From NCBI RefSeq assembly GCF_014904745.1, contig NZ_JACZCS010000009.1, forward strand, positions 1 to 64,000: DNA of 64,000 nt, read 5' to 3'. The notes under the pieces are model-generated. The model was not told where the DNA came from. It worked only from the letters and a program-made list of their open reading frames with translations, and made no database searches. The translations under genes were made by a program, and so were the position numbers. Position 1 is the stretch's first letter, and every line of letters begins with the position of its first letter. This DNA is from Oricola nitratireducens (lineage in GTDB: Bacteria; Pseudomonadota; Alphaproteobacteria; Rhizobiales; Rhizobiaceae). Of the stretch, positions 10,488-47,268 are shown piece after piece.

Positions 10488-10507
10488 GTAACGGCATCGT
10501 CAGTTAC
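10488..10507. repeat. GTAAC palindrome, copy 2
   Basis: GTAACGGCATCGTCAGTTAC keeps both arms of copy 1 (343-362), with changes in the centre. Similar flanking sequence follows both (GGCGCGTTTCGA.G.TCGGCTCGGC). It lies 90 bp beyond the stop of the second 48-residue protein. Confidence 0.6.
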
Positions 10508-15433: not shown

Positions 15434-15453
15434 GTAACGGAAATGTCCGTTAC
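15434..15453. repeat. GTAAC palindrome, copy 3
   Basis: GTAACGGAAATGTCCGTTAC has perfect 8-bp arms (GTAACGGA/TCCGTTAC) around 4 bases. It is the most symmetric member of the seven-copy family. It lies 60 bp after the end of the hypothetical gene at 14930-15373 and 134 bp before the IS1182 left end. Confidence 0.65.
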
Positions 15454-24999: not shown

Positions 25000-26373
25000 T
25001 CAGGCGGCCGCGGCGGACATCCCGGTTTCCCCGATCGGTTCCGGAGCCGTCTTCGGGGCATTCCTCGCCGATCGCTCGGCCTTCTCCTCCAGCCATTCCC
25101 GATACAGCCGCAGCGCCGACCGCAGGTCGGACTGCGTCTTGACCGGCAGCGAGAGGAACTCCCCGACCCGCTCCAGCGCCGCGATCTCCATCGCCGGATC
25201 GGCGAATGTCCGGCCCGCCAGCAGCCGCCGGGCGCGGTTGACCCGCGTCTTCGCGTTGCGGACCGATTGCGGCGAAAGGCCCCGCCTCCTCAGCCACTGG
25301 CCGAAGCGGCCCTCCAGGGCGGGAATGGTCTCGCCCGCCTCGCGCGCCAGGATCACGCGGCCGATCGCCTCGGCGAGCGGCGGCGGAACCGCGTTGGCGA
25401 TCAGCTGGTCGATGTCGCGCTTCGTGCGGCCGGGTGACCAGTCCCAGCCGGGTGGGAAGCCCTGGATGCGCGACACCTGGGCCTGGGTGAGCACGGCGGC
25501 ATCCGCCGGATGGACGGGATCGTTCGGGTGCGGCTCGGTCATGTAGCTCGCCCTCGGCCTCTCGCGCGAGGTCCGCACGATCGCCGGCGCCGGCTCGTCC
25601 AACACGCGCACACCCCTGCCCCCGTGCAGCGGCCGCGTGAAGAAGGCACCCTTCTCGAGCAGCGGTGCATCATCGGGATGCGGCTCGTAATCGGCCGGGA
25701 TCGGCCGCCGCGACGAGGAGCGCATGGTCGGCGCGGGCTCGTCCGCGCTCCACAGCCCCTTCTTGCCCGGCATGCGCGGATGCACGTAGATCGCCTCGGG
25801 GCTGCGGTCACCGAACAGATCGCGGACCGTCATCGCGGTCTCCGATGCCGCGTTGCGGATCGCCGACTGCAGAAAGCCGTCGGCCTCGCCGAGCCTGCCG
25901 ATGACGATCAGCCGCCGCCTGCGCTGTGCCACGCCGTAGAGGGAGGCGTCGAGTTTGCATTCGGTCAGGCCGTATCCCGCCCTGACCAGCATCGCCCTCG
26001 CCTCGCGCCACGCATCCGAGTTCAGCGCGCGCGTGACATTCTCCATCACGAACCAGCGGGGACGGGCGACCGCGACGAGCATGGCGAAGGCGCGCGTCAG
26101 GGCGGCATTCTCGCGCTCCTCGCGCCGACCGGCCGCCGAGAAGTCCTGGCACGGCGGCCCGCCGCAGATCAGGTCGGGCGCGAGCCGCGCCAGTTCCGGG
26201 CCGATCGAGAAGATGTCCTTGAGGTCGGCCTCGCGCGCGTGCGGGCCGAGATTGGCGCGGTAGACATCCACAGCCCGGTCCCAGGCATCGTATGCCTGGA
26301 CAAGTTCGAATCCTGCCCTTCGCAGGCCGAGCGACATGCCGCCGGCCCCGCAGAAGAGCTCCACCGCTCTCAT
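25000..26373 (-). CDS. DNA cytosine-5 methyltransferase with C-terminal extension, no nuclease partner seen
   Basis: This is a 457-residue protein. Motif I LFCGAGGMSLGL (6-17), catalytic Cys75 in GGPPCQDFS, VMENVTRAL, YGVAQRRRRLIVIG and NAVPPPLAEAIG mark a complete C5 methyltransferase. About 110 extra residues follow motif X (GQWLRRRGLSPQSVRNAKTR...), ending in a helical domain of unknown role. No restriction gene is adjacent. I start at ATG 26373 because the enzyme core begins there. Its upstream region carries the paired palindromes at 26539 and 26600. Confidence 0.88.
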   Translation of the reverse strand: MRAVELFCGAGGMSLGLRRAGFELVQAYDAWDRAVDVYRANLGPHAREADLKDIFSIGPELARLAPDLICGGPPCQDFSAAGRREERENAALTRAFAMLVAVARPRWFVMENVTRALNSDAWREARAMLVRAGYGLTECKLDASLYGVAQRRRRLIVIGRLGEADGFLQSAIRNAASETAMTVRDLFGDRSPEAIYVHPRMPGKKGLWSADEPAPTMRSSSRRPIPADYEPHPDDAPLLEKGAFFTRPLHGGRGVRVLDEPAPAIVRTSRERPRASYMTEPHPNDPVHPADAAVLTQAQVSRIQGFPPGWDWSPGRTKRDIDQLIANAVPPPLAEAIGRVILAREAGETIPALEGRFGQWLRRRGLSPQSVRNAKTRVNRARRLLAGRTFADPAMEIAALERVGEFLSLPVKTQSDLRSALRLYREWLEEKAERSARNAPKTAPEPIGETGMSAAAA

Positions 26374-26505
26374 GTCGCTTCCGTTCCCGAGGGTGCGGCC
26401 GGGGCCGCCGAGGAGGGCGCCGATGCCGCGCGGGGACCGTCCCCGCGGCCGGACATCGACATGTCGGCGGATAGGCGATTCGAATCCGGCGGCGAATTCC
26501 CAGAT

Positions 26506-26558
26506 TTCGCGATCACGCTGCGTCAAGCCGCTGAAATCGTAACGGAAAACTCCGTTAT
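26506..26558. repeat. 53-bp direct repeat, left copy
   Basis: Identical to 51444-51496 except for one C/T change. It begins TTCGCGATCACGCTGCGTC and ends with the palindrome at 26539-26558. Weaker similarity extends about 55 bp further left. The two copies are in the same orientation, 24,938 bp apart, and enclose the creatinine/sarcosine gene island. Confidence 0.85.
26539..26558. repeat. GTAAC palindrome, copy 4
   Basis: GTAACGGAAAACTCCGTTAT. It is the first of a pair with copy 5, start-to-start distance 61 bp. It forms the right end of the 53-bp repeat and lies 166 bp upstream of the start of the methyltransferase at 25000-26373. Confidence 0.65.
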
Positions 26559-26599
26559 GCAGAGAGCGCCGGAATGCGCCTTGTAAATTCTTCTGTATG

Positions 26600-26619
26600 G
26601 CAACTGGCCATTCAGTTAC
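26600..26619. repeat. GTAAC palindrome, copy 5
   Basis: GCAACTGGCCATTCAGTTAC. Its right arm CAGTTAC is identical to copies 1, 2 and 7; the left arm has one change in GTAAC. It sits 61 bp from copy 4, the same distance as between copies 6 and 7. Confidence 0.55.
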
Positions 26620-26829
26620 GTTTCCCGCTATCCTCCGCAGACATCTTGAATCATTAAGACCTTGGTTTGGGAATCTCTGCCGATCCAATCAGCTCGGGTG
26701 CCGCTCAAGGTGATGGACTCATAAACGCACAGACATATCCGGATGTTGGTCACATCGTGTGCTCCGCTAAGAATCTACAACGATCTGGTTCTATAACTTT
26801 GGAGTGGGTGGGCCTGCCTGTGTCACTGT

Positions 26830-27242
26830 CTAACCTAGCCATTCAGTTTGCTCAGACACCAGCGCTCGAGCACCTCGCTGTCCAGCGGTGAATTCTTCAA
26901 AGGCGGCTTATTTCAAGCGGCTCAGCCCACCATCACAGGAATGTCGCGCATCAGCGCATTTGCGATTACAGCGCGGAAACTGCGACCCGAACACTCGTGT
27001 TTTCTGAAATTGTTGATGACCAGAATATGCGGATTGCATGACATCTGCTCCTCAACGACCGCAACCGCAGTATCGAGTGCGGGGGAGTCGAGACGACAGC
27101 TATTTAAGCCTGGACCAAGAGACTGAGAAATGCGGATAACCTCACCATTGGAAAGGATGCGGATCCCAAGTGAGAGACACCATGGACCTCGCGCTCCGAG
27201 TAGATTTCGATGCCGCATGTCGCACGCCGGCACGGAAGGCAT
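26830..27242 (-). pseudogene. Remnant of a DUF2478 protein
   Basis: Residues ACDMRHR, VIRISQSLGPGLNSCRLDS, PHILVINNFRKHE and FRAVIANALMRDIPVMVG follow the pattern of DUF2478 proteins (CDM, ISQxLG, CRLD, VNKFGKxE, FRxxIAEAL). The frame stops right after MVG, whereas the family continues about 30 residues. That missing C-terminus can be read in another frame (AFEEFTAGQRG...) down to a TAG at 26830. The N-terminal 40 or so residues are absent. Family members are often linked to molybdate transport. It is a broken gene at the island edge. Confidence 0.6.
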
Positions 27243-27326
27243 CGTTTCGCTGGCTTACAGGTCGGTCAGATACCAACCATTAACACCGACCACCCCGTCG
27301 GGACTGATCATGAATTACGTGCAAAA

Positions 27327-28430
27327 TCACTCACCCGGCAGCACGTGACAATGGTCGGGATCCCAATGAACGGCAAGTTTCGAACCTGGGCGCGTATCCA
27401 ACGACGAAAACTCGTCGTGGCTTTTCTGGATTTTGAGTTCCGCGCCGGACTCGGTTTCAACGAATAATATCGCGGTGGCTCCCACAAATTCCTCTCCGAC
27501 TACTGTCACCGTAATTCCATTGGGTTGCGATCCAGTGGGCCTGACATTCATATTTTCCGCGCTGACTATAAATGTCACGGAATCGCCTTCATTCTTGTTT
27601 GTCACCTTGCCTGCATTGATTTCAAACGAGCCATCGGGGGCTTCAATCGTCCAGTAAACGCCAGTTTTTCTGCTCAACGCTCCAGTAAAAATGTTAGCGG
27701 ATCCAAGAAATTCGGCAACGAAGCGGTTGCGCGGCTCCCGGTAAATTTCTTGCGGAGTGCCAATCTGTTCGATTTTTCCACGACTCATAATGACCACTCG
27801 ATCCGCCATCGAAAACGCTTCCGACATTGAGTGCGTGACATAAACGAATGTGATGCCGAGATCTTTCTGCAAGCTGGACAAGACCGACTGCATCCGGACC
27901 TTTAGATGCGCGTCGAGGGCCGAAAGCGGCTCGTCGAGAAGTAGAATCTTGGGTTCGGTCACGAGCGCCCGAGCAAGCGCGACACGCTGCTTCTGGCCGC
28001 CTGACAATTGTGAGATATTGCGGTTCGCGAACTCCAGTATTTGCATCTTTTCGAGCCATCTGCGTGCCCGCTCGATGCGCTCAACCTTGCTGACACCACG
28101 CATTTTCAAACCGAACTCGACGTTTTCCTGGACGGTCAGAAACGGAAACAGCGCAAGGCTTTGCCACACCATGGGAGTGTCACGATCCCAAGTCGCCTTG
28201 CCATTCACTCGTTCTCCGTCGAGATAGATATCGCCATCGGTCGGGTCTTCCAATCCGGCCAGCATCCGCAATGTCGTTGTTTTGCCGCATCCGGAAGAAC
28301 CCATGATTGCGAGAAACTCGCCGCGGCCGATCTCGAAGTCGACACGTTCAACGGCGAAAATGTCTCCGAATTTCTTAACAACGCTGTCGAGTTTTACGAT
28401 TGAGTTGGTCGTCATTTGATCGTTCATCAT
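27327..28430 (-). CDS. ABC transporter ATPase, PotA-like
   Basis: This 367-residue ATPase has Walker A GSSGCGKTT at 44-52, the signature LSGGQKQR, Walker B ILLLDEP and the H-loop VTHSMSEA, followed by a C-terminal TOBE-like regulatory domain (residues about 280-367). It powers the import system encoded with the two permeases and binding protein upstream. Its ATG overlaps the preceding permease stop by 4 bp. Next to creatininase, the likely cargo is creatinine, creatine or a related amidine. Confidence 0.9.
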   Translation of the reverse strand: MMNDQMTTNSIVKLDSVVKKFGDIFAVERVDFEIGRGEFLAIMGSSGCGKTTTLRMLAGLEDPTDGDIYLDGERVNGKATWDRDTPMVWQSLALFPFLTVQENVEFGLKMRGVSKVERIERARRWLEKMQILEFANRNISQLSGGQKQRVALARALVTEPKILLLDEPLSALDAHLKVRMQSVLSSLQKDLGITFVYVTHSMSEAFSMADRVVIMSRGKIEQIGTPQEIYREPRNRFVAEFLGSANIFTGALSRKTGVYWTIEAPDGSFEINAGKVTNKNEGDSVTFIVSAENMNVRPTGSQPNGITVTVVGEEFVGATAILFVETESGAELKIQKSHDEFSSLDTRPGSKLAVHWDPDHCHVLPGE

Positions 28431-29233
28431 TTTTCCACGGGCCCTGTTGAAGGGTTGCGCATCAGCATTTGAGCGAAGACGATCAGCGTTATCGAACTCA
28501 GGAACGCCAGCGAGCCGATAGCGTTTATTCGAGGGCTTACCTGACCTTGCAGGAAGCCCAAGATCTTGACGGGAAGCGTCTCGTGCAGGCCGGAAACGAA
28601 CCATGCCACCGCGAATTCGTCGAATGAAACCGCCATCGTTATGAAAAGCGCTGCGAAGATTGCTGGTTTCGTGAAAGGCATGATCACATGTCGCAGCGTT
28701 GCCCATTCGTTGCCCCCCAGGTTCCAAGAGGCGGCCTCGAGATCCGGATCCATCTGCGAAAGCCGAAGCCGAATTATGGCCATGGCGAAGGGGCTGCACA
28801 TAACACCATGCGCAATAATCACTGAAAACGTGCCGCCGGATAGACTGATACGCGACAGGAAGGCCAGCATGGCAAGGCCCATGATTACCACCGGGATCGT
28901 TGGCGGCAACAAGGCCAAAGCGAGATAGGCATTCTTTCCGATGAAGTTGTAACGAAAGTCTGTGTAAGCCCCACCGAATCCGAGTGTCGTGGCAATCACC
29001 GCGACAATGGCACCGACGAAAACGGTATTGAAAAATCCGGCCCACACGAACGGGTCTTCCAAGATCAGCCGATACCACTGCAAAGAGAAATGCCCTAGCG
29101 GCAACGACGGAAAGCGATCCGAATTCAGCGAAAAAACAAAGCTGCCGATGATCGGCGCGAAAATGAACACTAGGCATGCCAAGATATGCAGCTTCAGCAA
29201 GCCATTGATTACAATGTTCCTGTTCCCGGTCAT
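28427..29233 (-). CDS. ABC transporter permease, PotC-like
   Basis: This 268-residue inner-membrane protein has about six transmembrane helices and the permease coupling loop EAASWNLGGNEWATLRHVIMP (EAA motif). ATG 29233 overlaps the upstream permease stop (ATGA). It is the fourth gene of the five-gene creatininase-transporter operon. Family members carry polyamines and similar cationic compounds. Confidence 0.88.
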   Translation of the reverse strand: MTGNRNIVINGLLKLHILACLVFIFAPIIGSFVFSLNSDRFPSLPLGHFSLQWYRLILEDPFVWAGFFNTVFVGAIVAVIATTLGFGGAYTDFRYNFIGKNAYLALALLPPTIPVVIMGLAMLAFLSRISLSGGTFSVIIAHGVMCSPFAMAIIRLRLSQMDPDLEAASWNLGGNEWATLRHVIMPFTKPAIFAALFITMAVSFDEFAVAWFVSGLHETLPVKILGFLQGQVSPRINAIGSLAFLSSITLIVFAQMLMRNPSTGPVEK

Positions 29234-30075
29234 TCCCCGCGCTCCCGGTAGGCGAACCTGATTGAAAGAAATGCAACCGTTAGAAGTGTGCCAATCATGG
29301 TCAGCGCGACGACCGCCGCGCGTGGCCACTGTTGACCTGATTTAGTGATGTCGGTGATCATGATGGAAAGGGTCGGCGGGTTGCCGCCACCGAGATAAAG
29401 CGGGCTAACAAAATCGCCAAAAGAAAGAATGAAGGCGAAAAGCGCCGCGATCACCAGCCCCACCTTCGCGGATGGCACGATCACGAGGAAAACGGTCCTG
29501 AAGCGCGCGCAACGCAAATTGTGAGCCGCTTCGACGAGATCCCTGTTTACAAAATTCAAGCTGAACAGCTGGAGCAATATGACCAGCGGCAAGCACAGAG
29601 TGATCATGCCGACCAAAGTGCCGAAGGTCGAGTTCAGCAAAGGAAACGGACCGATGCCAAATTTGCCAAGCAAGGCATTGATGATGCCGGCATCCGATAG
29701 AAACACCTGCAACGAATAGACCCTGACAAGATAACTGGTAAAGAACGGAATAATCAGAACAAATATGAGCCACCGCCTCGCACGTTCAGACAATTTGAAT
29801 GAGATCGCGTAAGAGGCCGGAAACGCAATTGCGCTGGTTATCGCCGCGCTAGCCGCCGCGAGACAGAATGTCCGCAGGTAAGCGTCCCAGAAAGCGCTTC
29901 GCGTGAATATGCGCACCCAATTTCCTGTATTGAAATCGGGCTGCATCTGGAAGTTGCGCACCGTCCAGAAGCTGATCGCGACGAGAAACAGCAGCGGAAA
30001 CAGGAAAAAGGCAAGCTGCCAGATCAGCAACGGAAGCGACAAGACCAGAGAGAAAAGGCTTGGACGTTTGGACAT
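29230..30075 (-). CDS. ABC transporter permease, PotB-like
   Basis: This 281-residue protein has six predicted transmembrane helices, with the coupling motif EAAHNLRCARFRTVFLVIVP near residue 190. Together with the PotC-like protein it forms the membrane channel. It follows the binding-protein gene by 66 bp. Its start MSKRPSLFSLVLSLPLL is a normal N-terminal membrane anchor. Confidence 0.88.
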   Translation of the reverse strand: MSKRPSLFSLVLSLPLLIWQLAFFLFPLLFLVAISFWTVRNFQMQPDFNTGNWVRIFTRSAFWDAYLRTFCLAAASAAITSAIAFPASYAISFKLSERARRWLIFVLIIPFFTSYLVRVYSLQVFLSDAGIINALLGKFGIGPFPLLNSTFGTLVGMITLCLPLVILLQLFSLNFVNRDLVEAAHNLRCARFRTVFLVIVPSAKVGLVIAALFAFILSFGDFVSPLYLGGGNPPTLSIMITDITKSGQQWPRAAVVALTMIGTLLTVAFLSIRFAYRERGE

Positions 30076-30141
30076 GGATTATCGGCCTTGTCGTGAGAAT
30101 GGCCGCCGGAACCGTGGGAGAGCGGTCCCGGCGGAGGCATG

Positions 30142-31260
30142 TTAGGCTGCCTTGTAGTCGGTCCAGAAGTCATTCCAGGTTTCGAGGCTTTGCTGAACGG
30201 GCAGTTGTCGATACTGGATACGACCTTCCCGGATCATGTCCATGACATTGCGCTCGCCCAGCACCATGTTCTGGCGCTTGGCCTCGGCCATGTTGTTCTC
30301 GTTTAGGACCTTCCAGCCGGCCTTGCTTGGGATAAGCGCCGGATATGCCGCCATATCAGCCGACTTGGCCTGGCCTTCGGGCGAAGTGATATACTGGATC
30401 CACTTCTTCGCCATCTCCTGATTCTTCGAGCCCTTGCCGATGGAAAAGGATTCGGTCCATTGGAGACCGCCTTCCTTCGGAATAACTGAACGCACGGGAG
30501 CGCCGTTCTTCTCGAGCGTTCCCGTTATCCAGTCCCCGATTCCCGCGATGGCAAGCATCTGTCCATTCTTCAGCGACGAGAACGTGCCGCCGTAGTCGAG
30601 AAAGCCGCCGACCTGCGGACGGAGGGTCATGGTCTTCTCCTTCAGCGCCTCCCAGACGACATCATCGATATCGTACGGCGATGCATTGCCGTTGTAGAGG
30701 CTGATCTGGCCGAGATTGGGCAGATGCCAGTCGAAATGACCCAGCTTTCCAGCCAGGCGTTCGTCCCAGTAGAGCCCATATGTGCCGGCCTCCTGCTCTG
30801 TGAAGGCATCGGTATTGTAGGCGACACCCAGGAATCCGAATCGGGTGATGACCGAGTAGAGCCTGCCGTCCTTCCAGTGACCCGGAAACTTCTGGAACTC
30901 TGGATAGTAGTCGTCAAAGTGGTAGTCTTCAGGGTCAAGTTCTTCGATATAGCCCGCCGCGTTCAACTGTTGAACATACTCGGCATCCGAGAGGATCACA
31001 TCGTATGTGCCGGCCGGTGATTGGGCGATCAGGCCAAGCATGTTATCGCCGCCGGTATAGTATTTTGGCGTGAACTTTACATTGTTGGCCTCTTCGAATT
31101 CACCAACGATATCCGGCTCGGCATGGCCATACCAAGCCAACATCGACAGATTCACGGTCTGCGCGGATGCTCTGATCGACAGAAAAGGCATCGCCAGCGC
31201 GGCGCCACCGGTCATTTTCATGAACTCCCTGCGGCTCGGTTTGATTAGATTAGATGCCAT
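30142..31260 (-). CDS. PotD/PotF-like periplasmic binding protein, Tat-type signal
   Basis: This is a 372-residue protein. The N-terminus KPSRREFMKMTGGAALAMPF is a twin-arginine signal with a probable cleavage after ASA near residue 33. The mature protein has the type II binding fold of spermidine/putrescine receptors (VNLSMLAWYGHAEP, YDVILSDAEYVQ, KKWIQYITSPEGQ). AAGGAG precedes ATG 31260. It lies 43 bp downstream of creatininase, so I infer a creatinine or creatine ligand rather than a polyamine. Confidence 0.88.
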   Translation of the reverse strand: MASNLIKPSRREFMKMTGGAALAMPFLSIRASAQTVNLSMLAWYGHAEPDIVGEFEEANNVKFTPKYYTGGDNMLGLIAQSPAGTYDVILSDAEYVQQLNAAGYIEELDPEDYHFDDYYPEFQKFPGHWKDGRLYSVITRFGFLGVAYNTDAFTEQEAGTYGLYWDERLAGKLGHFDWHLPNLGQISLYNGNASPYDIDDVVWEALKEKTMTLRPQVGGFLDYGGTFSSLKNGQMLAIAGIGDWITGTLEKNGAPVRSVIPKEGGLQWTESFSIGKGSKNQEMAKKWIQYITSPEGQAKSADMAAYPALIPSKAGWKVLNENNMAEAKRQNMVLGERNVMDMIREGRIQYRQLPVQQSLETWNDFWTDYKAA

Positions 31261-31303
31261 GCTTAGCTCCTTGTTTGCGAATTGTGCCTCCTGTCTTGGC
31301 GGA

Positions 31304-32107
31304 TTATTCCGCCGCGACAACATCGCCTTCGAAATTGAACTCCTTGCGCAACGCCGCGACGATCCCGCGCGTGCAGACCTCCAGCAAGATCTCGCCCTTC
31401 TCGGCGGTTGCCTCCTTGGGAGATGACAGCGTGCCGCTCGCCGGTGTCCACTCAGGTTTGGATGGGTAGACATCATAGGGCGGGAAAGTCGCCGGGGCAT
31501 GCTCGACCGCGTTTTGCAGCGACACCAAGTTCGGATGGAGCAGGAGCATTAGCGAGGTTTCCAAAACACCACCATGCTCGATATCCCAACCGAGAAAGCC
31601 GTCGGGATAGATCTTTTCAATGGATGCCTGATCAACGAAATCCCAATAGGAAAGCACGACCACTTTGACATCATTGATCCCGCTCCATTTCAGTTCCCTA
31701 AGTGCAAGATCGATCCCCTCGACGATGAACCACGAATTCTCGAAGTGACCATTTACGATGCAAATATTGCGAATCCCGTGGCGAGCGAATTCCTTGACCA
31801 CATCCTTGAGGGCATTGATCAAGCTCACGCCGTCGAGGCTGGTGGTGCCGGGAAAGAAGTTCCCGCCCCCGGATTTTTGCTGCGACTTGTAGCCATATGT
31901 GAACGGCGGCGCGACCAGCGCGCCAATTTCACTGGCGGCCCGACGCGCGAATTCGGTTGGCAGGAGCACATCCACGTGCATTGGCATGTGATGTCCGTGC
32001 TGCTCCATGGAGCCCAGCGGAATAAGAATGGGCACGGCCCCACCCTGTACGCGCCGCTGGTAATCCGGCCAGGCAAGTTCGGCGGCGAAAACTGTATCTG
32101 AAATCAT
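31304..32107 (-). CDS. crnA: Creatininase (creatinine amidohydrolase)
   Basis: This 267-residue enzyme hydrolyses creatinine to creatine. Metal ligands are visible: Glu35, His37 and Asp46 in SMEQHGHHMPMHVDVLLP, and His121 and Glu123 in VNGHFENSWF, each one residue beyond those of the Pseudomonas enzyme. The blocks YGYKSQQKSGGGN, FPGTTSLDG and FLGWDIEHGGVLETSLML are specific to true creatininase rather than the wider MftE-like family. It is first in an operon with the PotD-like transporter and diverges from a LysR gene. Confidence 0.9.
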   Translation of the reverse strand: MISDTVFAAELAWPDYQRRVQGGAVPILIPLGSMEQHGHHMPMHVDVLLPTEFARRAASEIGALVAPPFTYGYKSQQKSGGGNFFPGTTSLDGVSLINALKDVVKEFARHGIRNICIVNGHFENSWFIVEGIDLALRELKWSGINDVKVVVLSYWDFVDQASIEKIYPDGFLGWDIEHGGVLETSLMLLLHPNLVSLQNAVEHAPATFPPYDVYPSKPEWTPASGTLSSPKEATAEKGEILLEVCTRGIVAALRKEFNFEGDVVAAE

Positions 32108-32163
32108 GGCAGCCTCTAATGAGCGATCGAGTAAAACTTAATCCCGCTTGCTTCATCTGGAAA

Positions 32164-32178
32164 ATTCATAGTACGAAT
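32164..32178. promoter_or_regulatory. LysR-type box between crnA and its divergent regulator
   Basis: ATTC-N7-GAAT gives a T-N11-A element with perfect 4-base arms. It sits in the 90-bp gap between the divergent creatininase and LysR genes, where a LysR-type regulator would be expected to bind. The assignment is inferred from position and pattern. Confidence 0.5.
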
Positions 32179-32197
32179 GATCGCATAAAGGATATTT

Positions 32198-33091
32198 ATG
32201 ATGCGGCAATTCGTTAATCTGCAAACCGACCTTATCCGGACATTCGTCACGGTGGTGGATCTCGGAAATTTCACGGAGACCGGTCAAATATTGGGCAGGA
32301 CGCAGCCGGCGATTTCCCTGCAGATCAAGCGGCTTGAAAGCTTGGTTGGGGCAAAACTGCTTCAGCACACGGGCAAAACACTAGAGCTCACATCAGATGG
32401 CCAGACCCTTATCGGCTACGCTCGGGAAATACTGCGGATGAATGACCGAGCGGTAGCCAACTTTCAGCGCGCCCAACTTCTCGGCACACTTCGAGTTGGG
32501 CTTCCGACAGATTATGCCATCGGCTACTTCCAACGCGTCATCGCTCAATTTGCCAAGTCCAATCCGGAGGTCTCATTGGATGTCCGCTGCAATTGGAGCA
32601 GGGATATCCTGTCAAGCCTGCACACCGACGACCTCGATCTCGCGATCGCGATCACCGACGCGATGCCCGCGCCATATGTTTCGCTTTACTGGTCCGAGCG
32701 CCCGTTTTGGGTTTGCGGCCGCGACTATCACTACAGCCTGGAACGACCGGTCCAGATCATCGCGCACCCGGAAGGGTGCTATTATCGCAAGCGCATGATT
32801 GAAGCCCTGAGCACGGAAGGGCGCGAATGGAGGATATGTTTCGAGAGTCCCGGCATCTCGGCGCTTCAAAACGCGGTTCTCGACGGCATGGGGGTGACCG
32901 CCCTTACAAAGAAGACACTCCTGCCTGGGATGCGCGTCTTGTCACCGAAGGAGGGCTTCCCACTCCTGGCAAACCTGCACGTTGGCCTTTTCTACAAGCA
33001 CGTAAAGGCATCCGATGCCGCGTTGAAGCTAATCGACCAGATCGCGAACGGCGTGAGCGCTTTCCGTAAACCAACATATTCGCGGGCATGA
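32198..33091 (+). CDS. LysR-family regulator of the creatininase genes
   Basis: This 297-residue protein has an N-terminal winged HTH (IRTFVTVVDLGNFTETGQILGRTQPAISLQIKRLE, residues about 13-47) and a C-terminal effector-binding domain (about 95-290) containing LRVGLPTDYAIGYF. It diverges from the crnA operon and is followed by creatinase 124 bp downstream. The probable inducer is creatinine, creatine or a product, by inference from context. An AGGAT ribosome site precedes ATG 32198. Confidence 0.88.
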   Translation: MMRQFVNLQTDLIRTFVTVVDLGNFTETGQILGRTQPAISLQIKRLESLVGAKLLQHTGKTLELTSDGQTLIGYAREILRMNDRAVANFQRAQLLGTLRVGLPTDYAIGYFQRVIAQFAKSNPEVSLDVRCNWSRDILSSLHTDDLDLAIAITDAMPAPYVSLYWSERPFWVCGRDYHYSLERPVQIIAHPEGCYYRKRMIEALSTEGREWRICFESPGISALQNAVLDGMGVTALTKKTLLPGMRVLSPKEGFPLLANLHVGLFYKHVKASDAALKLIDQIANGVSAFRKPTYSRA

Positions 33092-33215
33092 GCGGGACCA
33101 GAGGGAAATATCCATACATTTCGGATTCTAATGATTGGATCAGTTCTATTAATTTCTTTCAAATCCTGTTTGCTGGTAGCGAGATGCGTCTCGACTTCAG
33201 CGAAGGGGAAGCAGC

Positions 33216-34442
33216 ATGCTCAACGATACGCTCAACAATATGCTCCACGTGACGGAATGGCATAATGGCGAGAAGGATTATTCGCCGTTTTCCGATAATG
33301 AAATGGCTCGACGCCAGAACGAATTACGCAAATGGATGGAAGCAAACAGCGTCGACGCGGCGTTGTTCACTTCCTATCACTGCATCAACTATTACTCGGG
33401 CTGGCTGTATTGCTATTTCGGCCGCAAGTACGGGATGGTGATCGATCAAAAGAACGCCACCACCATTTCCGCTGGCATCGACGGAGGTCAGCCGTGGCGC
33501 CGCACATTCGGCAACAACATCACGTATACAGACTGGCGCCGCGACAATTTCTATCGTGCGGCGCAGCAGCTGACGAAGGGTGCCAAGCGAATTGGGATCG
33601 AATTCGACCATGTATCGTTGGATTATCGGCAACAGTTGCAGGATGCCCTTCCCGGAGTCGAATTCGTGGACATTGGTCAACCGTCCATGTGGATGCGAAC
33701 CATCAAGTCCGACGAGGAGATCAAGCTCATCCGGGAAGGCGCGCGCGTATGCGACATTGGCGGTCATGCCGTGGCGAATGCCGTGAGAGCCGGTGTGCCT
33801 GAGCACGAAGTCGCGATCGCTGGCACGAACGCGATGATCCGAGAGATCGCAAAGTCATTTCCCTTTGTCGAACTGATGGATACCTGGACATGGTTCCAGT
33901 CCGGGATCAACACGGACGGTGCCCACAATCCGGTGACCAACCGGGTGGTTCAGTCTGGAGACATTCTCAGCCTCAATACATTTCCGATGATCTTCGGCTA
34001 CTATACCGCGCTTGAACGAACGCTGTTCTGCGAAACCGTCGACGATGCCAGCCTCGACATCTGGGAAAAGAATGTCGCGGTTCACGAACGCGGGCTTCAG
34101 CTGATCAAGCCCGGGGCGCGCTGCATGGACATAGCAAAGGAATTGAACGAGATGTATCGTGAGTGGGATCTGCTCAAATACCGCTCCTTTGGCTATGGCC
34201 ACAGCTTTGGAGTCCTAAGCCACTACTATGGTCGCGAGGCCGGCGTGGAGCTTCGTGAAGACATCGATACCGAATTGAAGCCTGGAATGGTAGTTTCCAT
34301 GGAGCCGATGGTCATGATTCCTGAGGGGCAGCCCGGTGCCGGCGGATATCGCGAGCACGACATTCTGGTCATCGGGAACGATGGAGCCGAGAATATCACT
34401 GGTTTCCCGTACGGACCTGAACACAATGTCGTTGGCAAATAG
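33216..34442 (+). CDS. Creatinase (creatine amidinohydrolase)
   Basis: This 408-residue enzyme of the pita-bread (aminopeptidase P-like) fold hydrolyses creatine to sarcosine and urea without metal. The substrate region FTSYHCINYYSGWLYC and the catalytic histidine, about His237 in SGINTDGAHNPVT, match the Pseudomonas enzyme. The C-terminal GYGHSFGVLSHYYGREAG and PGAGGYREHDI blocks do too. Length equals the family norm. GAAGGGG lies upstream. It links creatininase to the sarcosine oxidase operon; the urea would need a urease outside this window. Confidence 0.93.
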   Translation: MLNDTLNNMLHVTEWHNGEKDYSPFSDNEMARRQNELRKWMEANSVDAALFTSYHCINYYSGWLYCYFGRKYGMVIDQKNATTISAGIDGGQPWRRTFGNNITYTDWRRDNFYRAAQQLTKGAKRIGIEFDHVSLDYRQQLQDALPGVEFVDIGQPSMWMRTIKSDEEIKLIREGARVCDIGGHAVANAVRAGVPEHEVAIAGTNAMIREIAKSFPFVELMDTWTWFQSGINTDGAHNPVTNRVVQSGDILSLNTFPMIFGYYTALERTLFCETVDDASLDIWEKNVAVHERGLQLIKPGARCMDIAKELNEMYREWDLLKYRSFGYGHSFGVLSHYYGREAGVELREDIDTELKPGMVVSMEPMVMIPEGQPGAGGYREHDILVIGNDGAENITGFPYGPEHNVVGK

Positions 34443-34478
34443 AGGAGTCCGACGGACTTTGAAGATTGCCGCGTCGAT

Positions 34479-34503
34479 GACCAGCATCAGTTTGATGCTG
34501 GTC
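34479..34503. terminator. Strong hairpin after creatinase
   Basis: GACCAGCATCA and TGATGCTGGTC form a perfect 11-bp stem with a 3-base loop, 37 bp after the creatinase stop. There is no following T run, so a factor-independent terminator is uncertain. It may instead protect the transcript end. Confidence 0.45.
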
Positions 34504-34822
34504 ACCGTATGCGCGCTGATGGCCGCCAGGATTAATCGCCAAGGATACGTTGTACTTGTTCGGTACGGCGCTTCGTACTACCTCCGGACCAATACCGGAA
34601 ACCCGAGAAAAGCAGGCGCTGCCCCTCACTCGACAGCCCATCTCCGTTTTAACATAAATCGGCCGCGCGGCTCTCGGTCGGTCGCGGTGCCATGATGCTT
34701 GCCGTTTCATTTGGTACACATTGCCGCGGAATTTCTCCGGTCATCCCACATTCCGTACACCAACTTCGTTAATGTTCCTGAAGTTGTTCGCCATCAAGAC
34801 AAGTATTGGCGATATTCGGCCG
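34504..34822. other. Gap between convergent creatinase and sdaA
   Basis: I see no gene. The creatinase and sdaA transcripts converge here. Confidence 0.4.
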
Positions 34823-36235
34823 TTAGCATTCCGGTAAATTGACAGCGATCCCGCCTGTCGATGTCTCCTTGTATTTTACGCTCATATCGAGGCCGGTTTC
34901 GAACATGACCTTGATGCAATTGTCGAGCGGCATGAAATGCCTGCCATCTCCGTGCAACGCTAGTGATGCCGCGGATACCGCCTTGATCGCGCCAAGCGCG
35001 TTCCTTTCGATACAGGGCACTTGTACAAGCCCGCCCGCCGGATCGCAGGTCATCCCAAGATGATGCTCCAATGCGATTTCCGCCGCATTCTCGATCTGTT
35101 CGCTACCTCCGCCGAGTGCGGAGCATAAACCCGCCGCGGCCATCGCAGAGGCGGATCCGACTTCGCCCTGGCAGCCAACCTCGGCTCCGGAGATCGACGC
35201 ATTGGACTTGATTATTCCGCCGATCGCGGCGGCGGTAAGCAGGAAATCACGCCGACGTGCATCGGAGACACCATCGCAATGATCCTGCCAATAGCGCAGC
35301 ACTGACGGAAGCGTGCCCGCCGCCCCATTCGTCGGTGCCGTCACGACCCGGCCGCCGGCGGCGTTTTCCTCATTCACCGCCATGGCGTAGACGCTTAGCC
35401 AATCATTGATCTCATGAGGCGGTCGCCGGTTGCTGAAGCGCCTTTCCCGCAGGCGTACATGGATCCCATTGGCACGTCGCCTTACCTTCAATCCGCCGGG
35501 CAATATCCCTTCGGTTCTCAATCCGCGGTCGATGCAGGCGTTCATGGCTTCGGCCAGAGCATCGAGGCCGGCATCGAGGGATTCCACCCCGTTGGCTTGC
35601 TCATTGCATCGCTTCATCGCCGCGATGCTCAACCCCGAGGCGCGAGCCATCTCCAGCATTTCAGCGGCGGATCCGAACGGAAAGGGATAGCCGCGCGTCT
35701 CCTTGACCGCATGCAATCCGCCTCCAGATGCGGCACGCTCGGCACGCAACTCGGCCTCGGTCAGAACGAAGCCGCCGCCGACCGAATAGTAGATCGATTT
35801 CAGATAACAATTACCTCGTGTATCGAAAGCCTCCAGCACCATACCGTTGGCATGAAGAGGCAACGGCGGTCCGTAGTCAAAAACGAGATCGGCCGCGGGG
35901 TCAAAGGCCAATTCCGGCAGGCCCTCGGGCCGCAAGGTTTTTTCCGTGCAAAGCCTCTCGATCATGTCATCGGCGGCATCCGGGTCAAGCGTATCAGGGC
36001 GGGCGCCCAAAAGCCCCAGCATGACCGCCCGGTCCGTCGCATGGCCCTTGCCCGTGAATGCAAGAGAGCCATGCAGCCGCGCGCGCAGATGGGCGGGCCG
36101 ATCCGCGCCGGGGATCGGCTCGGCCCCACCGCGCAGCTCGTCGAGAAAACGATCGGCGGCGACCATCGGTCCCATCGTATGCGAGGACGACGGGCCGATG
36201 CCGTGTTTGAATATTTCAAAGACCGATATGAACAT
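34823..36235 (-). CDS. sdaA: L-serine ammonia-lyase, iron-sulfur type
   Basis: This 470-residue single-chain enzyme converts serine to pyruvate and ammonia. The N-terminal [13 protein letters not shown] is the substrate loop. The Fe-S cluster cysteines are in [22 protein letters not shown] and nearby. The start codon lies 5 bp after the glyA stop, and it is the last gene of the soxBDAG-glyA-sdaA operon. It completes the route from sarcosine through glycine and serine to pyruvate. Confidence 0.93.
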
Positions 36236-36240
36236 GGAGC

Positions 36241-37506
36241 CTAGCTGTAAATAGGATAACGGGCACAGAGCTTCTCGACCTCCGCGCGGACCTCCGCTTC
36301 GACGGAGCCGTTTCCCTCTTCGTCTTTCAACAGGGCGCGCAGCACCCGCAGGATCATCCCGCCCACAGCGCGGAACTCCGTTTCCCGCAAGCCGCGTGTC
36401 GTCCCCGCCGAGGTACCGAGCCGTATACCGGATGTCACGAAGGGCTTCTCGGGATCGAACGGGATGGCATTCTTGTTGCAGGTCAATCCGGCTCGCTCCA
36501 GCGCGATTTCCGCCATCTTGCCGGTGACACCAAATGGGCGCAGATCGACCAAAACCATATGGCTGTCGGTGCCCCCCGAAACGATGCCTGCCCCGCCCTC
36601 CTTCAGCGTTTCGGACAAGGCCCGGGCATTGGCGATCACAGCTTTCGCATAATTCTTGAACGACGGCTGCAGCGCCTCGCCGAAGGCAACCGCCTTGGCC
36701 GCAATCACATGCATGAGCGGCCCTCCCTGGTTTCCGGGAAACACCGCTGAGTTTATCTTTTTGCCGAGCACCTCGTCATTGGTCAGAACAATGCCGCCAC
36801 GCGGACCTCTCAACGTCTTGTGCGTCGTCGAAGTGACGATATGAGCGTGCGGGATCGGATTGGGATACTCGCCCGCCGCAATTAGCCCCGCATAGTGCGC
36901 CATATCAACCATCAAATATGCGCCCACTTCATCGGCGATGGAGCGGAAGGTGGCGAAGTCGAGATGCCGCGGATAGGCCGAGGCACCCGCGATTATCAAT
37001 TGTGGCTTCTCCGCCAATGCGATCTGGCGCACCTTCTCCATGTCGATCAGATGGCTGCCGGGCTCCACCTCATACGAGACAACCTCAAACCACTTGCCCG
37101 ACATAGTAACAGGCGAACCATGCGTGAGGTGCCCGCCATGGGCGAGCGACAGACCCATTATCTTGTCGCCCGGTTGAAGCAGAGCGAGGAACACCGCCTG
37201 ATTGGCCTGCGCGCCCGAATGCGGCTGAACATTGACATGGGCCGCGCCAAACAGCGTCCTGAGCCGGTCGCGAGCGATGTCCTCCACGGTATCCACATGC
37301 TCGCAGCCGCCATAGTAGCGGCGGCCCGGATAACCCTCGGCATATTTGTTGGTCAGGACCGAACCCTGCGCGATCAACACATCGCGCGAAACGATATTCT
37401 CAGACGCAATCAGTTCGATCTGGTTCTGCTGACGATTTAGTTCAAGATCGATGGCGACGGCCACAGGCGTGTCGGTGAGCAGATTCCCGATATTGGCATC
37501 AAGCAT
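36241..37506 (-). CDS. glyA: Serine hydroxymethyltransferase
   Basis: This 421-residue PLP enzyme combines glycine and 5,10-methylenetetrahydrofolate into serine. [20 protein letters not shown] and [14 protein letters not shown] are visible; the PLP lysine is in the last (about residue 229). In this operon it would use both products of sarcosine oxidase. It probably exists alongside a housekeeping glyA elsewhere, but that cannot be seen here. Confidence 0.95.
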
Positions 37507-37592
37507 GCGTGCATTCCTTTCTATGGCGTAAATCGGACTTGAACGGTGGCTGGGTTCACCACGAGCAGCGATTGTCCGAGTCAGATGGAAGG

Positions 37593-38138
37593 TTAGAGAC
37601 CCGCCGCGAACTCAGCTTGGGCAAGATCGAGCAAGGCCCGGACATGTGGCAGGAAACTGCGCCAGACATCCATGCGGAAGCTGTTTTCGTCGTCCCGCCA
37701 CAAGATCACCGTCGCTGTATCGAAAGCCGTGCGCGCCGCGCTGCCGACCTCCATCGATTCAATGTCGCGAGCGATGCCCGTCGTGAGAGCCGTCAGCGCC
37801 TCCGGACCGCTCAACCGCAGCACAACCTCGCGATCTGACACGTCGCAAAACGCATGTGGAATCTTTGCGTATGCCGCACGGGAGGCTTCGATGAGCGCGT
37901 CGCGCCGTTTATCGGGCGCAAGGACGCACCATTCGTCGGGGCCAAGGCAAAGAGCCTCGACCTCGCCCTTTCGCTCGACCGAGCCGATGCGAACCGGCAA
38001 TGCGAGGCCGAGGGATTCGCTCAACACCCGCGCGCGCTCAGATCGAACACGCAGCGAAAAGCGTGCCTGTGGGACCAGTTCCTCGATGCGGATCATAACG
38101 GCCGATCTGTCGGTGTCGTTGTGTTTCTGGGTGGTCAT
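37593..38138 (-). CDS. soxG: Sarcosine oxidase gamma subunit
   Basis: This is a 181-residue protein with the GcvT-like fold of Sox[27 protein letters not shown], then [25 protein letters not shown]. The last part, [24 protein letters not shown], is the family C-terminus. It is the fourth subunit of the heterotetramer. The gene follows soxA by 11 bp and precedes glyA by 86 bp. Confidence 0.9.
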
Positions 38139-38149
38139 GATCGGCCTCC

Positions 38150-41143
38150 TCAGACCTGCAGGCGTGCGCCTTCGGGGTCATAGAAATTGGTATCGGTGAT
38201 ACGCGCCCTGTGCGTGACGCCGGGCAATGGCACATGAACAATGTCGCCCATGAGATCCCGCCCGCCCTCGATCAACGCCATGGCGATAGGGTGACCCAAC
38301 GCGGCCGACCGATAGGACGAGGTGACATGACCTACCATCTTCATCGGTTTGGGTTGGTTCGGGTCGAGCACGATCTGTGCGCCCTCTTCGAGCTTGGCGC
38401 CATTCTCGGTGATCAGGCCGACAAGCTGCTTGCGGCCGGGCATGACGAGATCAGGGCGTGCGAGTGAGCGTTTGCCCACGAAGTCCGGCTTCTTTTTGCC
38501 GATCGCCCAGTTCAGACCGGCATCCTCCGGCGTTACCGTTCCGTCTGTGTCCTGACCTACGATAATGTAGCCCTTCTCGGCGCGCAGGACATGCATCGCC
38601 TCGGTTCCGTACGGGCAAATATCATGGGCTGCGCCCGCCTCCATCAGCGCTTTCCAGAGCGTCGGACCGTGGCGCGCGGGCACGTTGATCTCGAATCCCA
38701 ACTCGCCGGTGAAGCTCAGCCGGAAGAGACGCGCGGGCAGACCCGACACCTTGCAATCAGCCACAGACATATGCGGGAATGCATCATGAGAGATGTCGAG
38801 ACCCTCGACCAGCGGCTCCAATACCTTGCGCGCGTTGGGACCGTTGAGCGCGACGACCGCCCAATGCTCGGTCATCGAGGTTAGCCAGACGGTGAGGTCG
38901 GGCCATTCGGTCTGGAGGTAATCCTCCATCATGTTCAGCACGCGGGCCGCCCCGCCCGTCGTCGTGGTGACATGGAACAGATCATCCGTGATCCGTCCAA
39001 TCACGCCATCGTCGCGGATGAATCCGTCTTCGCCCAGAAGCAGACCATAGCGGGTGCGGCCCGGTGCCAGCTTCGTCCAGGGATTGGTATACATGCGATT
39101 CATGAACTCCGCCGCGTCCGGTCCCGCAACCTCGATCTTGCCGAGCGTGGACGCATCGAAGATCCCGACGGAGTTGCGTGTGGCGGTGCATTCGCGCAAT
39201 ACGGCGGCATCCATGCTCTCGCCGACCTTTGGGAAATACCAGGCCCGGCGCCACTGGGCCACCGGCTCGAAGACCGCTCCGTGTTCCTCGGCCCAGGAAT
39301 CGATCGTGGTCCTACGCGTCAACTCGAAGGTCGCACCCCTGTGGTAGCCGGCGAAGGCACCAAAGGTGGTCGGCGTATAGGGCGGCCGGAAGGTCGTCAG
39401 CCCGACACGAGGCGGTGCCTCGCCCAAGGCATCGGCGGCGATCATGAGCCCGTTGATGTTGGACATCTTGCCCTGATCCGTCGCCATTCCGTTGGTGGTA
39501 TACCGCTTCACATGCTCGATCGAGCGCATCCCCTCGCGTACGGCGAGCCGGATGTCCTTGGCCGTCACGTCGTTCTGGAAATCGATGAAGGCGCGCGCCT
39601 TGCCCGCGTCGCGATCAGTCGGCAATTCCTTGTGCGTGACACCGGTTCCGGGTCGATCCTGCGCGACGGCGAACCGCGCGTGGTCCGAGATTTCGAACCC
39701 GGCGGCCTCCGCCGCCGCGCGGCCGGCGACATCGCCATCGTTCAGCGCCGCTTCAAAGCTCCAGAGGCCGCGCCCGGCCCCGGCAATGTGGCAGGCTTCG
39801 GACCTGTGATCCGGTAAATAGGCGTTTTGGCTCTCGTCCCATTTCAGACTGCCTTTGGTATGGGAAAAGAGATGCAGTGATGGTGTCCAGCCTCCGCACA
39901 TCAAAAGACAGTCACACCGCACGGTCACAGCCGCGCCGACGCGACCGTCCCTCACAGGGTTGACACGCACCGACTTGACCCGCAGGCGTCCCGCCGTGCC
40001 GGTCACGGTGTGGCCGGCAAACAAGCGGATGCCCCGGCGTTCGGCCTCTCGCGCTAGATCGGCGCGCGGCGTATCGCGGGTGTCGACGATGGCTGTGATC
40101 TCCGTACCAGCATCGGCCAGGTCGAATGCACCGTACCAAGCGCTGTCATGGCTGGTAACCACGACAGCCTCGTCTCCGACCCGCACGCCATAGCGGTTGA
40201 GATATGTCTGCGCGCTGCCCGCCAGCATCACGCCGGGACGGTCGTTGCCGTCGAATACGAGCGGTTTTTCCAGAGCGCCCTGCGCGAGCACAACCTGCCC
40301 CGCGCGCACGCGCCATAAGCGTTCACGCGGGGCACCTTCTGGCAACTCGTCGAGATGGTCGGTCAGTTTTTCGCACAGGCCGACCATGTTCTGGTGATAA
40401 TATCCGATCGCCGTGGTGTGCATCATCAGCCGCACGCCAAGTTCCTCCAGTTCGACGAGCTGGGCGGAAAGCCAGTCCCACGCCCCGATATCGTCGATTT
40501 TCACGCGGGGGTCGGATAGTAGCGCGCCGCCGATTTCGCGGTTCTCGTCCACTAGCGTGACACGCGCGCCCGACTGCGCCGCGCTTTTCGCCGCGGCGAT
40601 TCCCGCGGGACCCGCGCCGATCACGAGGATGTCGGTGTGTAAATAACGAGACGAATAACGATCGGGATCCTCTTCGCCGGGTGACACGCCCAAGCCGGCG
40701 GCGGCGCGAATGATTGGCTCGTAAACCTTGTTCCAAAAACTCTTGGGCCACATGAAGGTCTTGTAATAGAAACCTGCGGAGAACAGCATGTAGGCCTTGT
40801 CGTTGACGGCCCCGATGTCAAAATTCAGGCTTGGCCATCTGTTCTGGCTCTCGGCCACCAAACCCTCGCGCAACTCCTGCACGGTCGCGCGGGTGTTGGG
40901 CTCGTATCGGCCCTTGCCCCTGCTCGTACTGATCAGCGCGTTTGGTTCTTCCGAACCCGCGGTGACGGTACCGCGCGGGCGGTGATACTTGAAGCTGCGA
41001 CCGATCAGGTGCACGCCGTTGGCCAGCAGGGCCGAGGCAACCGTGTCCCCACGCAGGCCGGTGTATGTACGTCCATCAAAAGTGAAGTTGACAGGCTCGG
41101 CGTGCTCGACGCGGCCTTTGCCCTCTACGCGAAACCGGGTCAT
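38150..41143 (-). CDS. soxA: Sarcosine oxidase alpha subunit
   Basis: This 997-residue subunit starts with a ferredoxin-like fold (FDGRTYTGLRGDTVASALLANG). Next comes an NAD(+)-binding Rossmann domain (VIGAGPAGIAAAKSAAQSGARV, about residues 175-200). The C-terminal half is GcvT-like and binds tetrahydrofolate (ELTRRTTIDSWAEEHGAVFEP onward). The complex oxidises sarcosine to glycine and delivers formaldehyde equivalents as 5,10-methylenetetrahydrofolate. Its ATG overlaps soxD's stop by 4 bp. Length fits the family. Confidence 0.95.
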   Translation of the reverse strand: MTRFRVEGKGRVEHAEPVNFTFDGRTYTGLRGDTVASALLANGVHLIGRSFKYHRPRGTVTAGSEEPNALISTSRGKGRYEPNTRATVQELREGLVAESQNRWPSLNFDIGAVNDKAYMLFSAGFYYKTFMWPKSFWNKVYEPIIRAAAGLGVSPGEEDPDRYSSRYLHTDILVIGAGPAGIAAAKSAAQSGARVTLVDENREIGGALLSDPRVKIDDIGAWDWLSAQLVELEELGVRLMMHTTAIGYYHQNMVGLCEKLTDHLDELPEGAPRERLWRVRAGQVVLAQGALEKPLVFDGNDRPGVMLAGSAQTYLNRYGVRVGDEAVVVTSHDSAWYGAFDLADAGTEITAIVDTRDTPRADLAREAERRGIRLFAGHTVTGTAGRLRVKSVRVNPVRDGRVGAAVTVRCDCLLMCGGWTPSLHLFSHTKGSLKWDESQNAYLPDHRSEACHIAGAGRGLWSFEAALNDGDVAGRAAAEAAGFEISDHARFAVAQDRPGTGVTHKELPTDRDAGKARAFIDFQNDVTAKDIRLAVREGMRSIEHVKRYTTNGMATDQGKMSNINGLMIAADALGEAPPRVGLTTFRPPYTPTTFGAFAGYHRGATFELTRRTTIDSWAEEHGAVFEPVAQWRRAWYFPKVGESMDAAVLRECTATRNSVGIFDASTLGKIEVAGPDAAEFMNRMYTNPWTKLAPGRTRYGLLLGEDGFIRDDGVIGRITDDLFHVTTTTGGAARVLNMMEDYLQTEWPDLTVWLTSMTEHWAVVALNGPNARKVLEPLVEGLDISHDAFPHMSVADCKVSGLPARLFRLSFTGELGFEINVPARHGPTLWKALMEAGAAHDICPYGTEAMHVLRAEKGYIIVGQDTDGTVTPEDAGLNWAIGKKKPDFVGKRSLARPDLVMPGRKQLVGLITENGAKLEEGAQIVLDPNQPKPMKMVGHVTSSYRSAALGHPIAMALIEGGRDLMGDIVHVPLPGVTHRARITDTNFYDPEGARLQV

Positions 41144-41442
41144 TGCGCGGCCTCCTCGGCTGTCAGGTCGGGGCGGGGATCGCCCGCCTTGTAGGTGGTC
41201 ATAAACTTGTCACTCACGGTATCGCGCACCGCATTGAAGAAACGCGCGCAGCCATGAACATGCCGCCAGCGTTCAAAATGCGGTCCCTTCACGTTGGAGC
41301 GGATGAACAGATAATCGCGCCATTCCTCATCGGAGAGCGCTGAAGGATCAGCGGGGCGGTCAATATGCGCCTCGCCCGCGTAGGCGAACTCGGCCTCCGG
41401 CAGAGTTTCTTCGCAATAGGGGCAATGGATCAGCAACATCAC
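41140..41442 (-). CDS. soxD: Sarcosine oxidase delta subunit
   Basis: This 100-residue zinc-binding subunit has CPYCEE near the N-terminus and a HGCARFFN block, giving the Cys3His zinc site typical of SoxD. It begins 9 bp after the end of soxB and is coupled to soxA by an ATGA overlap. Confidence 0.92.
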   Translation of the reverse strand: MMLLIHCPYCEETLPEAEFAYAGEAHIDRPADPSALSDEEWRDYLFIRSNVKGPHFERWRHVHGCARFFNAVRDTVSDKFMTTYKAGDPRPDLTAEEAAQ

Positions 41443-41451
41443 TCTTCCTCC

Positions 41452-42705: not shown

Positions 42706-42830
42706 TGGCGTAGCCTCCGGGCCGGGCGGTCCTAATCAATGCGCCATGATGCCAGAGGAAAGGATTTTTCACTGTATGTATGCGTCAGTTTGGCGTTATA
42801 ATTGCGTCACGTTTTCGAAATGAATCAACG

Positions 42831-43847: not shown

Positions 43848-43865
43848 TCATTCTTGAATTACGCG

Positions 43866-45368: not shown

Positions 45369-45460
45369 GACATTTTCCCCAGTTCTTGTTTGGATTCGTC
45401 CGCTAGAAGGATCGATTGCCGCGGATTGCTTCAGAGCCATGCGAATGGCCGCCGCGGCGG

Positions 45461-47254: not shown

Positions 47255-47268
47255 TTTCTTGTTCCTCC

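Follow-up and report, generated by a model that had tools for sequence, protein, structure and literature searches.

The methyltransferase M.SsoII acts as repressor of its own gene through a palindromic regulatory site (PMC3978073 and PMC3874152, in part), and the former source reports that each site takes two molecules of the enzyme. The same sources describe readers at the N terminus and control through methylation sites in promoters, with CfrBI as a case of promoter control through the methylation site (PMC3978073, in part). RptR, which represses restriction-modification islands, is another protein, 79 residues long, that binds 6-bp palindromes according to part of PMC12255303. In the literature searched, which did not cover most subscription journals, no paper matched for HindV or GRCGYC had HindV itself as a word or a title on the control of such genes, and none among the matches listed on DNA methyltransferases and tyrosine recombinases used the term core-binding domain.

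The window analyzed here is a stretch of 64,000 nucleotides, the first 64 kb of the 137,124-bp contig C21 in a 4.93-Mb draft genome of Oricola nitratireducens (66 contigs). Its features relevant to this analysis are as follows, with island genes named by Pfam (ABC ATPase, LysR) or from the annotation of similar plasmid records (the others).

343..362, forward strand: unpaired palindrome copy, within a duplicated stretch
10488..10507, forward strand: unpaired palindrome copy, in the second copy of the duplicated stretch, 0.35 kb past metH
15434..15453, forward strand: unpaired palindrome copy, between convergent genes
25000..26373, reverse strand: C5-cytosine methyltransferase (457 aa), of which aa 345-457 form a C-terminal extension
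25000..25341, reverse strand: C-terminal domain of the methyltransferase, similar in its model to the N-terminal domains with which tyrosine recombinases read DNA
26440..26538, no strand assigned: repeated flank on the methyltransferase promoter side, recurring at the right end of the island
26539..26558, forward strand: palindrome 1 of the left pair, GTAACGGAAAACTCCGTTAT, with arms GTAACGGA-AAAC-TCCGTTAT; candidate for the proximal methyltransferase operator
26600..26619, forward strand: palindrome 2 of the left pair, GCAACTGGCCATTCAGTTAC, with arms GCAACTGG-CCAT-TCAGTTAC; 61 bp from palindrome 1
26620..51384, no strand assigned: cargo island between the copies, with an ABC transporter, sarcosine-oxidase-like and hydantoinase-like blocks and a LysR regulator
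51385..51476, no strand assigned: second copy of the methyltransferase promoter flank, with no adjoining methyltransferase gene
51477..51496, forward strand: palindrome 1 of the right pair, GTAACGGAAAATTCCGTTAT
51538..51557, forward strand: palindrome 2 of the right pair, GTAACTAACGGAGCAGTTAC, overlapping by 4 bp the end of the gene for a 448-aa protein
51554..52900, reverse strand: 448-aa protein with no family match, flanking the right pair

Read directly from the sequence, the two 20-bp palindromes of each pair start exactly 61 bp apart, as a preliminary description of this DNA had stated, and its further statement that the 41-bp fillers are unrelated also holds, with 10 of 41 positions in agreement against a shuffle mean of 9.8 (P 0.55). 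Its description of the pairs as island ends is fair, because the block between them begins at lower G+C (0.53-0.57 at 27-35 kb). The sequence preceding palindrome 1 presents the opposite picture from the fillers: 26506-26558 shows 98% identity to the copy ending at 51496, and the longer alignment of 26440-26558 with 51385-51496 shows 79% over 119 columns. Beyond palindrome 1 the similarity breaks off abruptly, yet palindrome 2 follows at an equal distance in both copies. A promoter-like stretch is thus duplicated together with palindrome 1. Half-sites vary independently, as GTAACGG or GTAACTG on either side, and for this reason a protein-binding inverted repeat is the best fit; the centers of paired sites differ by one base. 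An RNA hairpin or terminator reading was rejected for the C21 sites, several of which have G facing A between their arms and which are not followed by a run of T. Two copies in the related genome G289 have longer stems, and these may have a terminator role.

Contig C21 contains ten sites with no more than one mismatch to GTAACKG-N6-CMGTTAC, while each of 12 order-2 Markov simulations contained none. A looser pattern matched the window 14 times, with 6.6 matches expected; the largest count among 100 shuffles was 13, so none reached 14. Scanned genome-wide at up to one mismatch, a near-equal pattern, from which the palindrome at 26600 differs by two mismatches, hit ten places, nine of them on C21 and the tenth at C36:19901, which stands alone on its 99.8-kb contig even at up to three mismatches. 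In addition to the three unpaired copies in the window, C21 has others at 75026, 103574 and 133374, and for all six the best other match within 130 bp has at least five mismatches. As a general rule, therefore, the 61-bp distance fails, given seven unpaired copies (these six and C36:19901) and a single site in the 7.6 kb of L065, a Hyphomicrobiales contig. Nine of the ten C21 sites lie outside called genes (calls of at least 90 aa, with a coding density of 79%), and the tenth, at 51538, overlaps a gene end by just 4 bp. Several of the single copies sit between convergent genes, an arrangement atypical of operators.

No site cluster was found in five congeners. Exact matches were limited to the source genome and G003 among 61 related genomes (its own included), and to five of 394 genomes of the family; matches in G003, G165 and G211 were set aside as near the chance rate (about 1.8 places expected, with a control pattern matching four genomes), and separate hits in G021 proved to be an unrelated repeat. 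Between 9.5 and 29.4 kb, only the metH end and scattered pieces match the congeners, and we regard this region as accessory DNA for that reason. Several other observations concern the make-up of the window. The stretches 303-697 and 10448-10895 are diverged copies (about 78-80%) of roughly 0.4 kb, each with a 48-aa ORF and a palindrome, that flank a block with alanine racemase, a DAO oxidoreductase and metH; the metH block at 6280-10142 is 92.6% identical to congener G002, while its flanks are unmatched in the G002 stretch compared. A repeat around TTCACTATA...ACGGGACAA occurs at 820-853, 13062-13095 and 24059-24092, the second and third copies being 79% and 68% identical to the first. A defence-like cluster at 17343-23853 encodes two DUF4238 proteins, a Vsr endonuclease, an Eco29kI-type restriction enzyme and a C5-methyltransferase. 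Past the island, 54324-61780 contains NnrU, NnrS and cbb3-type oxidase genes, and similar clusters occur on plasmids of Defluviimonas, Gemmobacter and Thioclava.

The left pair lies directly upstream of the methyltransferase gene at 25000-26373. The catalytic domain of the enzyme matches Pfam model PF00145 with an E-value of 3.4e-48, and the protein scores 118.8 bits to the NCBIfam dcm superfamily model, for which the cut-off is 100.65. Counted from the predicted ATG, the palindromes are found at -185 and -246, farther away than in other loci. The reading frame is open to 26688; an alternative TTG start at 26526 would leave palindrome 1 merely 13 bp upstream, while a start at 26688 would place both left palindromes within the ORF.

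The eight complete, fully aligned enzymes from the order to which the window belongs all start at motif I, have from their predicted starts no N-terminal helix-turn-helix region, and share an extension of about 100 residues C-terminal to the catalytic domain. No Pfam model scores above cut-off for this extension. Among more distant relatives, the enzymes of plasmid pEC34B and of Citrobacter carry it, with the pEC34B extension related to that of the window at 29% over 77 residues, and the Morganella enzyme is truncated early within it. M.BsaHI, a GRCGYC methyltransferase, is encoded by 969 nt according to part of PMC2413257, and at that length would be too short to include the extension. The full-length methyltransferase yielded a poor model (pLDDT 43), while the extension modeled alone reached a pLDDT of 75.8. 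For this model, the nine best VIA-align rows (Z 8.0 to 5.7) are all tyrosine recombinases, representing five proteins when lambda Int is counted once, and include an integron integrase (2a3v, Z 7.6) and lambda Int bound to its core site. The tenth row, at 5.3, is a fragment without a name, and unrelated proteins start at 4.6. No helix-turn-helix family occurs among the best rows, an absence that carries no weight. We take the aligned ranges of the nine recombinases to be their core-binding domains. These Z scores must be read with the caution that, below 13, the match of a helical bundle may reflect no more than a common shape, and Foldseek alone gave a weak result, its best hit being an archaeal Xer at E 0.15. 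No catalytic recombinase domain is seen in the methyltransferase.

Related loci were collected into a set of eleven, made up of the window, seven relatives, and three enterobacterial HindV plasmids. In all eleven, a 20-bp inverted repeat of 8-4-8 geometry is found upstream of the methyltransferase, and in ten of them its first base falls between -35 and -76. The repeat is perfect in four loci, has one mismatched pair in five, and has two in the remaining two (G674 and the second G713 copy). Of 4,889 random 250-nt windows drawn from 14 loci, 0.9% hold a perfect repeat; with one mismatched pair allowed, the comparison is nine of eleven loci vs. 20% of random windows, and three relatives outside the set also have an upstream repeat at that level. 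Because so many random windows and these three outside relatives pass, only perfect or sequence-like repeats carry weight. The eleven loci, moreover, represent about seven independent cases, since the two G713 loci and G674 belong to a single type of island and the three enterobacterial plasmids are closely related to one another. The three outside relatives are the broken gene of pAA04, a fragment from R. leguminosarum and a phage enzyme that lacks the extension. Also left out of the set were L084 (a near copy of pEC34B, with the GACGTC pair) and L066, which is 27% identical and has no GTAAC-type site at up to four mismatches. In pAA04, where identity is 53%, no GTAAC-type site precedes the gene.

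The letters of the repeat differ by lineage, reading GTAACTGA, GTAACCGA, GTCATGTA, GTAACGAA with GTCATGAA or GTAATGAA, and GACGTCAA. A search at E 1e-70 through 397 genomes of the order matched the methyltransferase in its own genome, G083, G041, G674 and G713 (two copies), and among these five genomes the letters drift through GTAACCGA, GTCATGTA, and GTAATGAA or GTCATGAA paired with GTAACGAA. G289 has a C5-methyltransferase ORF homologous to that of the window, with the repeat at -63 to -44, and L065, whose enzyme is 65% identical, has a perfect copy, GTAACTGACAAATCAGTTAC, at -35 to -16. The HindV methyltransferases of E. coli, Citrobacter and Morganella plasmids, 36-38% identical, have GACGTCAATTTATTGACGTC or close variants at about -75; the Morganella locus keeps its repeat although its enzyme is truncated in the extension. 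A protein scan of genome contigs for the methyltransferase returned two loci, and none in viral contigs.

We counted matches to the local site of each relative at up to two mismatches. G289 has three within 12.5 kb (26.2-38.7 kb) and none elsewhere in 295 kb; G083 has three within 21 kb (76.9-97.9 kb) and none elsewhere in the 226 kb searched from the start of its contig; in about 159 kb scanned, G674 has two sites 3.2 kb apart. The site at the gene is the sole one in G041 (137 kb), G713:C1 (about 199 kb) and G713:C45 (43 kb, after one candidate was dropped). Two site-like sequences, G674:49760 and G713:C45:128261, were rejected as part of conserved relaxase-like coding sequence. That cognate copies are dispersed near the enzyme in some genomes, not all, supports, so far as sequence can, a putative single reader with one code per element. 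Two further observations were made at these loci. In G289, G083 and G674, Vsr-like ORFs occur no more than a few kb away from the cognate methyltransferase. A homologous recombinase gene is present in L102 (G083:C3, about 98-101 kb) and L100 (G041:C4, about 18-20 kb), next to a gene that looks to us like comM/YifB, which suggests that these islands inserted at a comM/YifB-like gene.

The preliminary description had named an XRE-like protein, a replication-like protein, and 48-residue proteins as candidate binders of the palindromes. In an all-against-all comparison of ORFs of at least 80 aa from the eleven pieces, which range from 2.6 to 137 kb so that counts for other genes are lower bounds, the methyltransferase is found in 11 of 11 and any other gene in five at most. 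With no other gene exceeding five of eleven loci, neither the XRE-like nor the replication-like protein emerges as the binder; the 48-residue proteins fall below the 80-aa cut of this comparison. The first 276 residues of the 724-aa replication-like ORF look like out-of-frame translation, and the remaining 448 aa are reminiscent, in our judgment, of plasmid replicases. Homologs of the 448-aa protein were found in two of 150 other genomes searched (37% and 35%), with a weak, broken match in a third, while the protein scan of genome contigs returned no match. In L048, its homolog adjoins a second gene (279-1151 and 1498-2868), presumably a restriction endonuclease from its appearance.

These comparisons make it somewhat probable that the palindromes are operators of the M.HindV-related C5-cytosine methyltransferase, bound by two molecules of the enzyme and controlling its own gene. 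Self-recognition is the simplest reading because a domain of the type by which recombinases read their cores coincides with an inverted repeat before the gene of the same enzyme. Two methyltransferase molecules would read the inverted repeat, probably through the C-terminal recombinase-like domain, and the bound enzyme would shut down or tune transcription of its own gene. At the promoter in the window, two operators 61 bp apart, on roughly the same face of the helix, could allow cooperative binding. The equal distance in both copies suggests selection on spacing, as previously claimed, from an n of two in which the members are copies of one duplicated promoter region; likewise, the dimer-of-dimers array proposed with it agrees with the spacing and the unrelated fillers as a form of cooperative binding, its basis being those same two copies. 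The promoter region would have been duplicated and so come to lie at both ends of the 24.9-kb cargo block, while single copies would sit at further intergenic positions in this accessory DNA, perhaps as secondary targets of the same protein.

How cargo came to lie at the sites bears on two other explanations, each compatible with operators. The locus G713b has the methyltransferase, one site, and the next gene contiguous and uninterrupted. In G674, 3.2 kb separates the genes contiguous in G713b; the insert, with an ATPase and a phosphatase-like gene as judged by eye, is flanked by direct copies of the site, and its flank matches overlap on G713b by 28 bp, comprising the palindrome with the 6 bp that precede it and the 2 bp that follow. 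G713:C1 has an insert of about 0.63 kb within about 6 bp of the palindrome, with no clean second copy. The window is similar in layout only, with 24.9 kb of cargo bracketed by direct copies and a repeated unit longer than in the relatives. Such insertions, and the bracketing of the island, would be expected if the palindrome were a site-specific recombination core at which an integrase inserts or exchanges modules, the methyltransferase living beside the core or sharing the DNA-reading domain of the integrase. A 20-bp inverted repeat with a short variable center is like a recombinase core, the extension resembles core-reading domains down to that of the integron integrase, and G289 and G674 have ORFs that we take to be integrase-like. 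We nevertheless judge such a core unlikely. The second palindrome is not clean in G713:C1, the centers of paired sites differ by a base, a crude motif scan shows no tyrosine integrase on C21 or C36, and the flank repeat in the window reaches about 100 bp beyond the site, which is unexpected for crossover at the core. A recombination site had been among the earlier suggestions; the insertions at the homologous site in relatives speak for that part of it, and the extended flank repeat against. Duplication of operators by ordinary rearrangement, with both copies kept as both neighbors need them and with no dedicated recombination, is a possibility we hold tentatively. It can be likened to insertion with long target duplication around restriction-modification genes, a term used in the restriction-modification literature (for example PMC3031569 and PMC3874152), and it accords with a duplication that is long and diverged in the window (79%, 119 columns) and short in G674 (28 bp). 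It leaves less well explained why, in relatives, two distinct inserts start just a few bases from the palindrome, and why the fillers are unrelated although the flank is 98% identical. A fuller picture, in which a methyltransferase with a tyrosine-recombinase-type reader has 20-bp repeats that are both operator and docking site for cargo or defence modules, the 61-bp pairs of the window being one such platform, seems to us doubtful on present sequence comparisons.

Concentration of nine of ten places (at most one mismatch, 4.9-Mb genome) on one 137-kb contig, outside genes, would also be expected of sites that organize a replicon or chromosome, serving in partition or marking a terminus as matS does. 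This we consider very improbable. A crude pattern found no ParA-type Walker A motif on C21, which may be part of a replicon, the genome has no match to the RepC family (RP-C), and no contig-end overlap was found for C21; five congeners are without clusters, and clusters in other genomes lie around the methyltransferase. In the part of it available, the ZapT paper found no motif (PMC7188993), and the available part of PMC7858052 names none. The Walker A and RepC results, together with the absence of a family match for either the 724-aa ORF or its 448-aa part, likewise give no support to the origin-like element suggested earlier. A dif-like site on C21 was considered and dropped, being a single weak 19-letter match to a dif consensus that was unconvincing.

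Returning to the putative operators, the systems of M.SsoII, M.Ecl18kI and M.EcoRII are alike in pairing a C5-methyltransferase gene with a palindromic site in the promoter region. They differ in that the M.SsoII kind has an N-terminal reader, and M.SsoII a 15-bp site, whereas here there is a C-terminal recombinase-like extension and a 20-bp site, which in the window family occurs in dispersed copies in several genomes. Core sites such as dif, integron and lambda att sites share the inverted repeat, short variable center, cargo at the site, and the fold of a linked protein; in contrast, the crude scan found no recombinase on the contig of the window, and the methyltransferase is without a catalytic recombinase domain. 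HindV-type restriction-modification comes close in protein and layout: the window enzyme aligns at 35.9% identity over residues 1-427, extension included (E 9e-63), and the space separating the divergent R and M genes holds an 8-4-8 repeat at about -75 relative to the methyltransferase start. The differences are the presence of an R gene and the letters, GACGTC...GACGTC, two words that fit the GRCGYC target. An HindVP-like ORF is matched among the three plasmids only (E 1e-8), with none in the eight other pieces, C21 included. Because the operator arms fit the target, the catalytic part could be the reader in these plasmids. As in CfrBI-type control, the HindV plasmids carry two of their two or three GRCGYC sites in the gap before the methyltransferase (2/2, 2/3 and 2/3 of whole-plasmid sites in L142, L143 and L144), so that CfrBI-like control through the target site is possible there by analogy; the GTAAC-type operators differ in having no recognizable methylation target.

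Self-controlling methyltransferases are known with N-terminal readers, and a recombinase-like reader at the C terminus, with an operator code of its own, would be a new design. That code would change its letters and keep its geometry from the order of the window to enterobacterial plasmids. If cargo insertion at operators is true, it would explain the stacking of defence and catabolic modules beside such methyltransferases and would provide a searchable signature for further islands.
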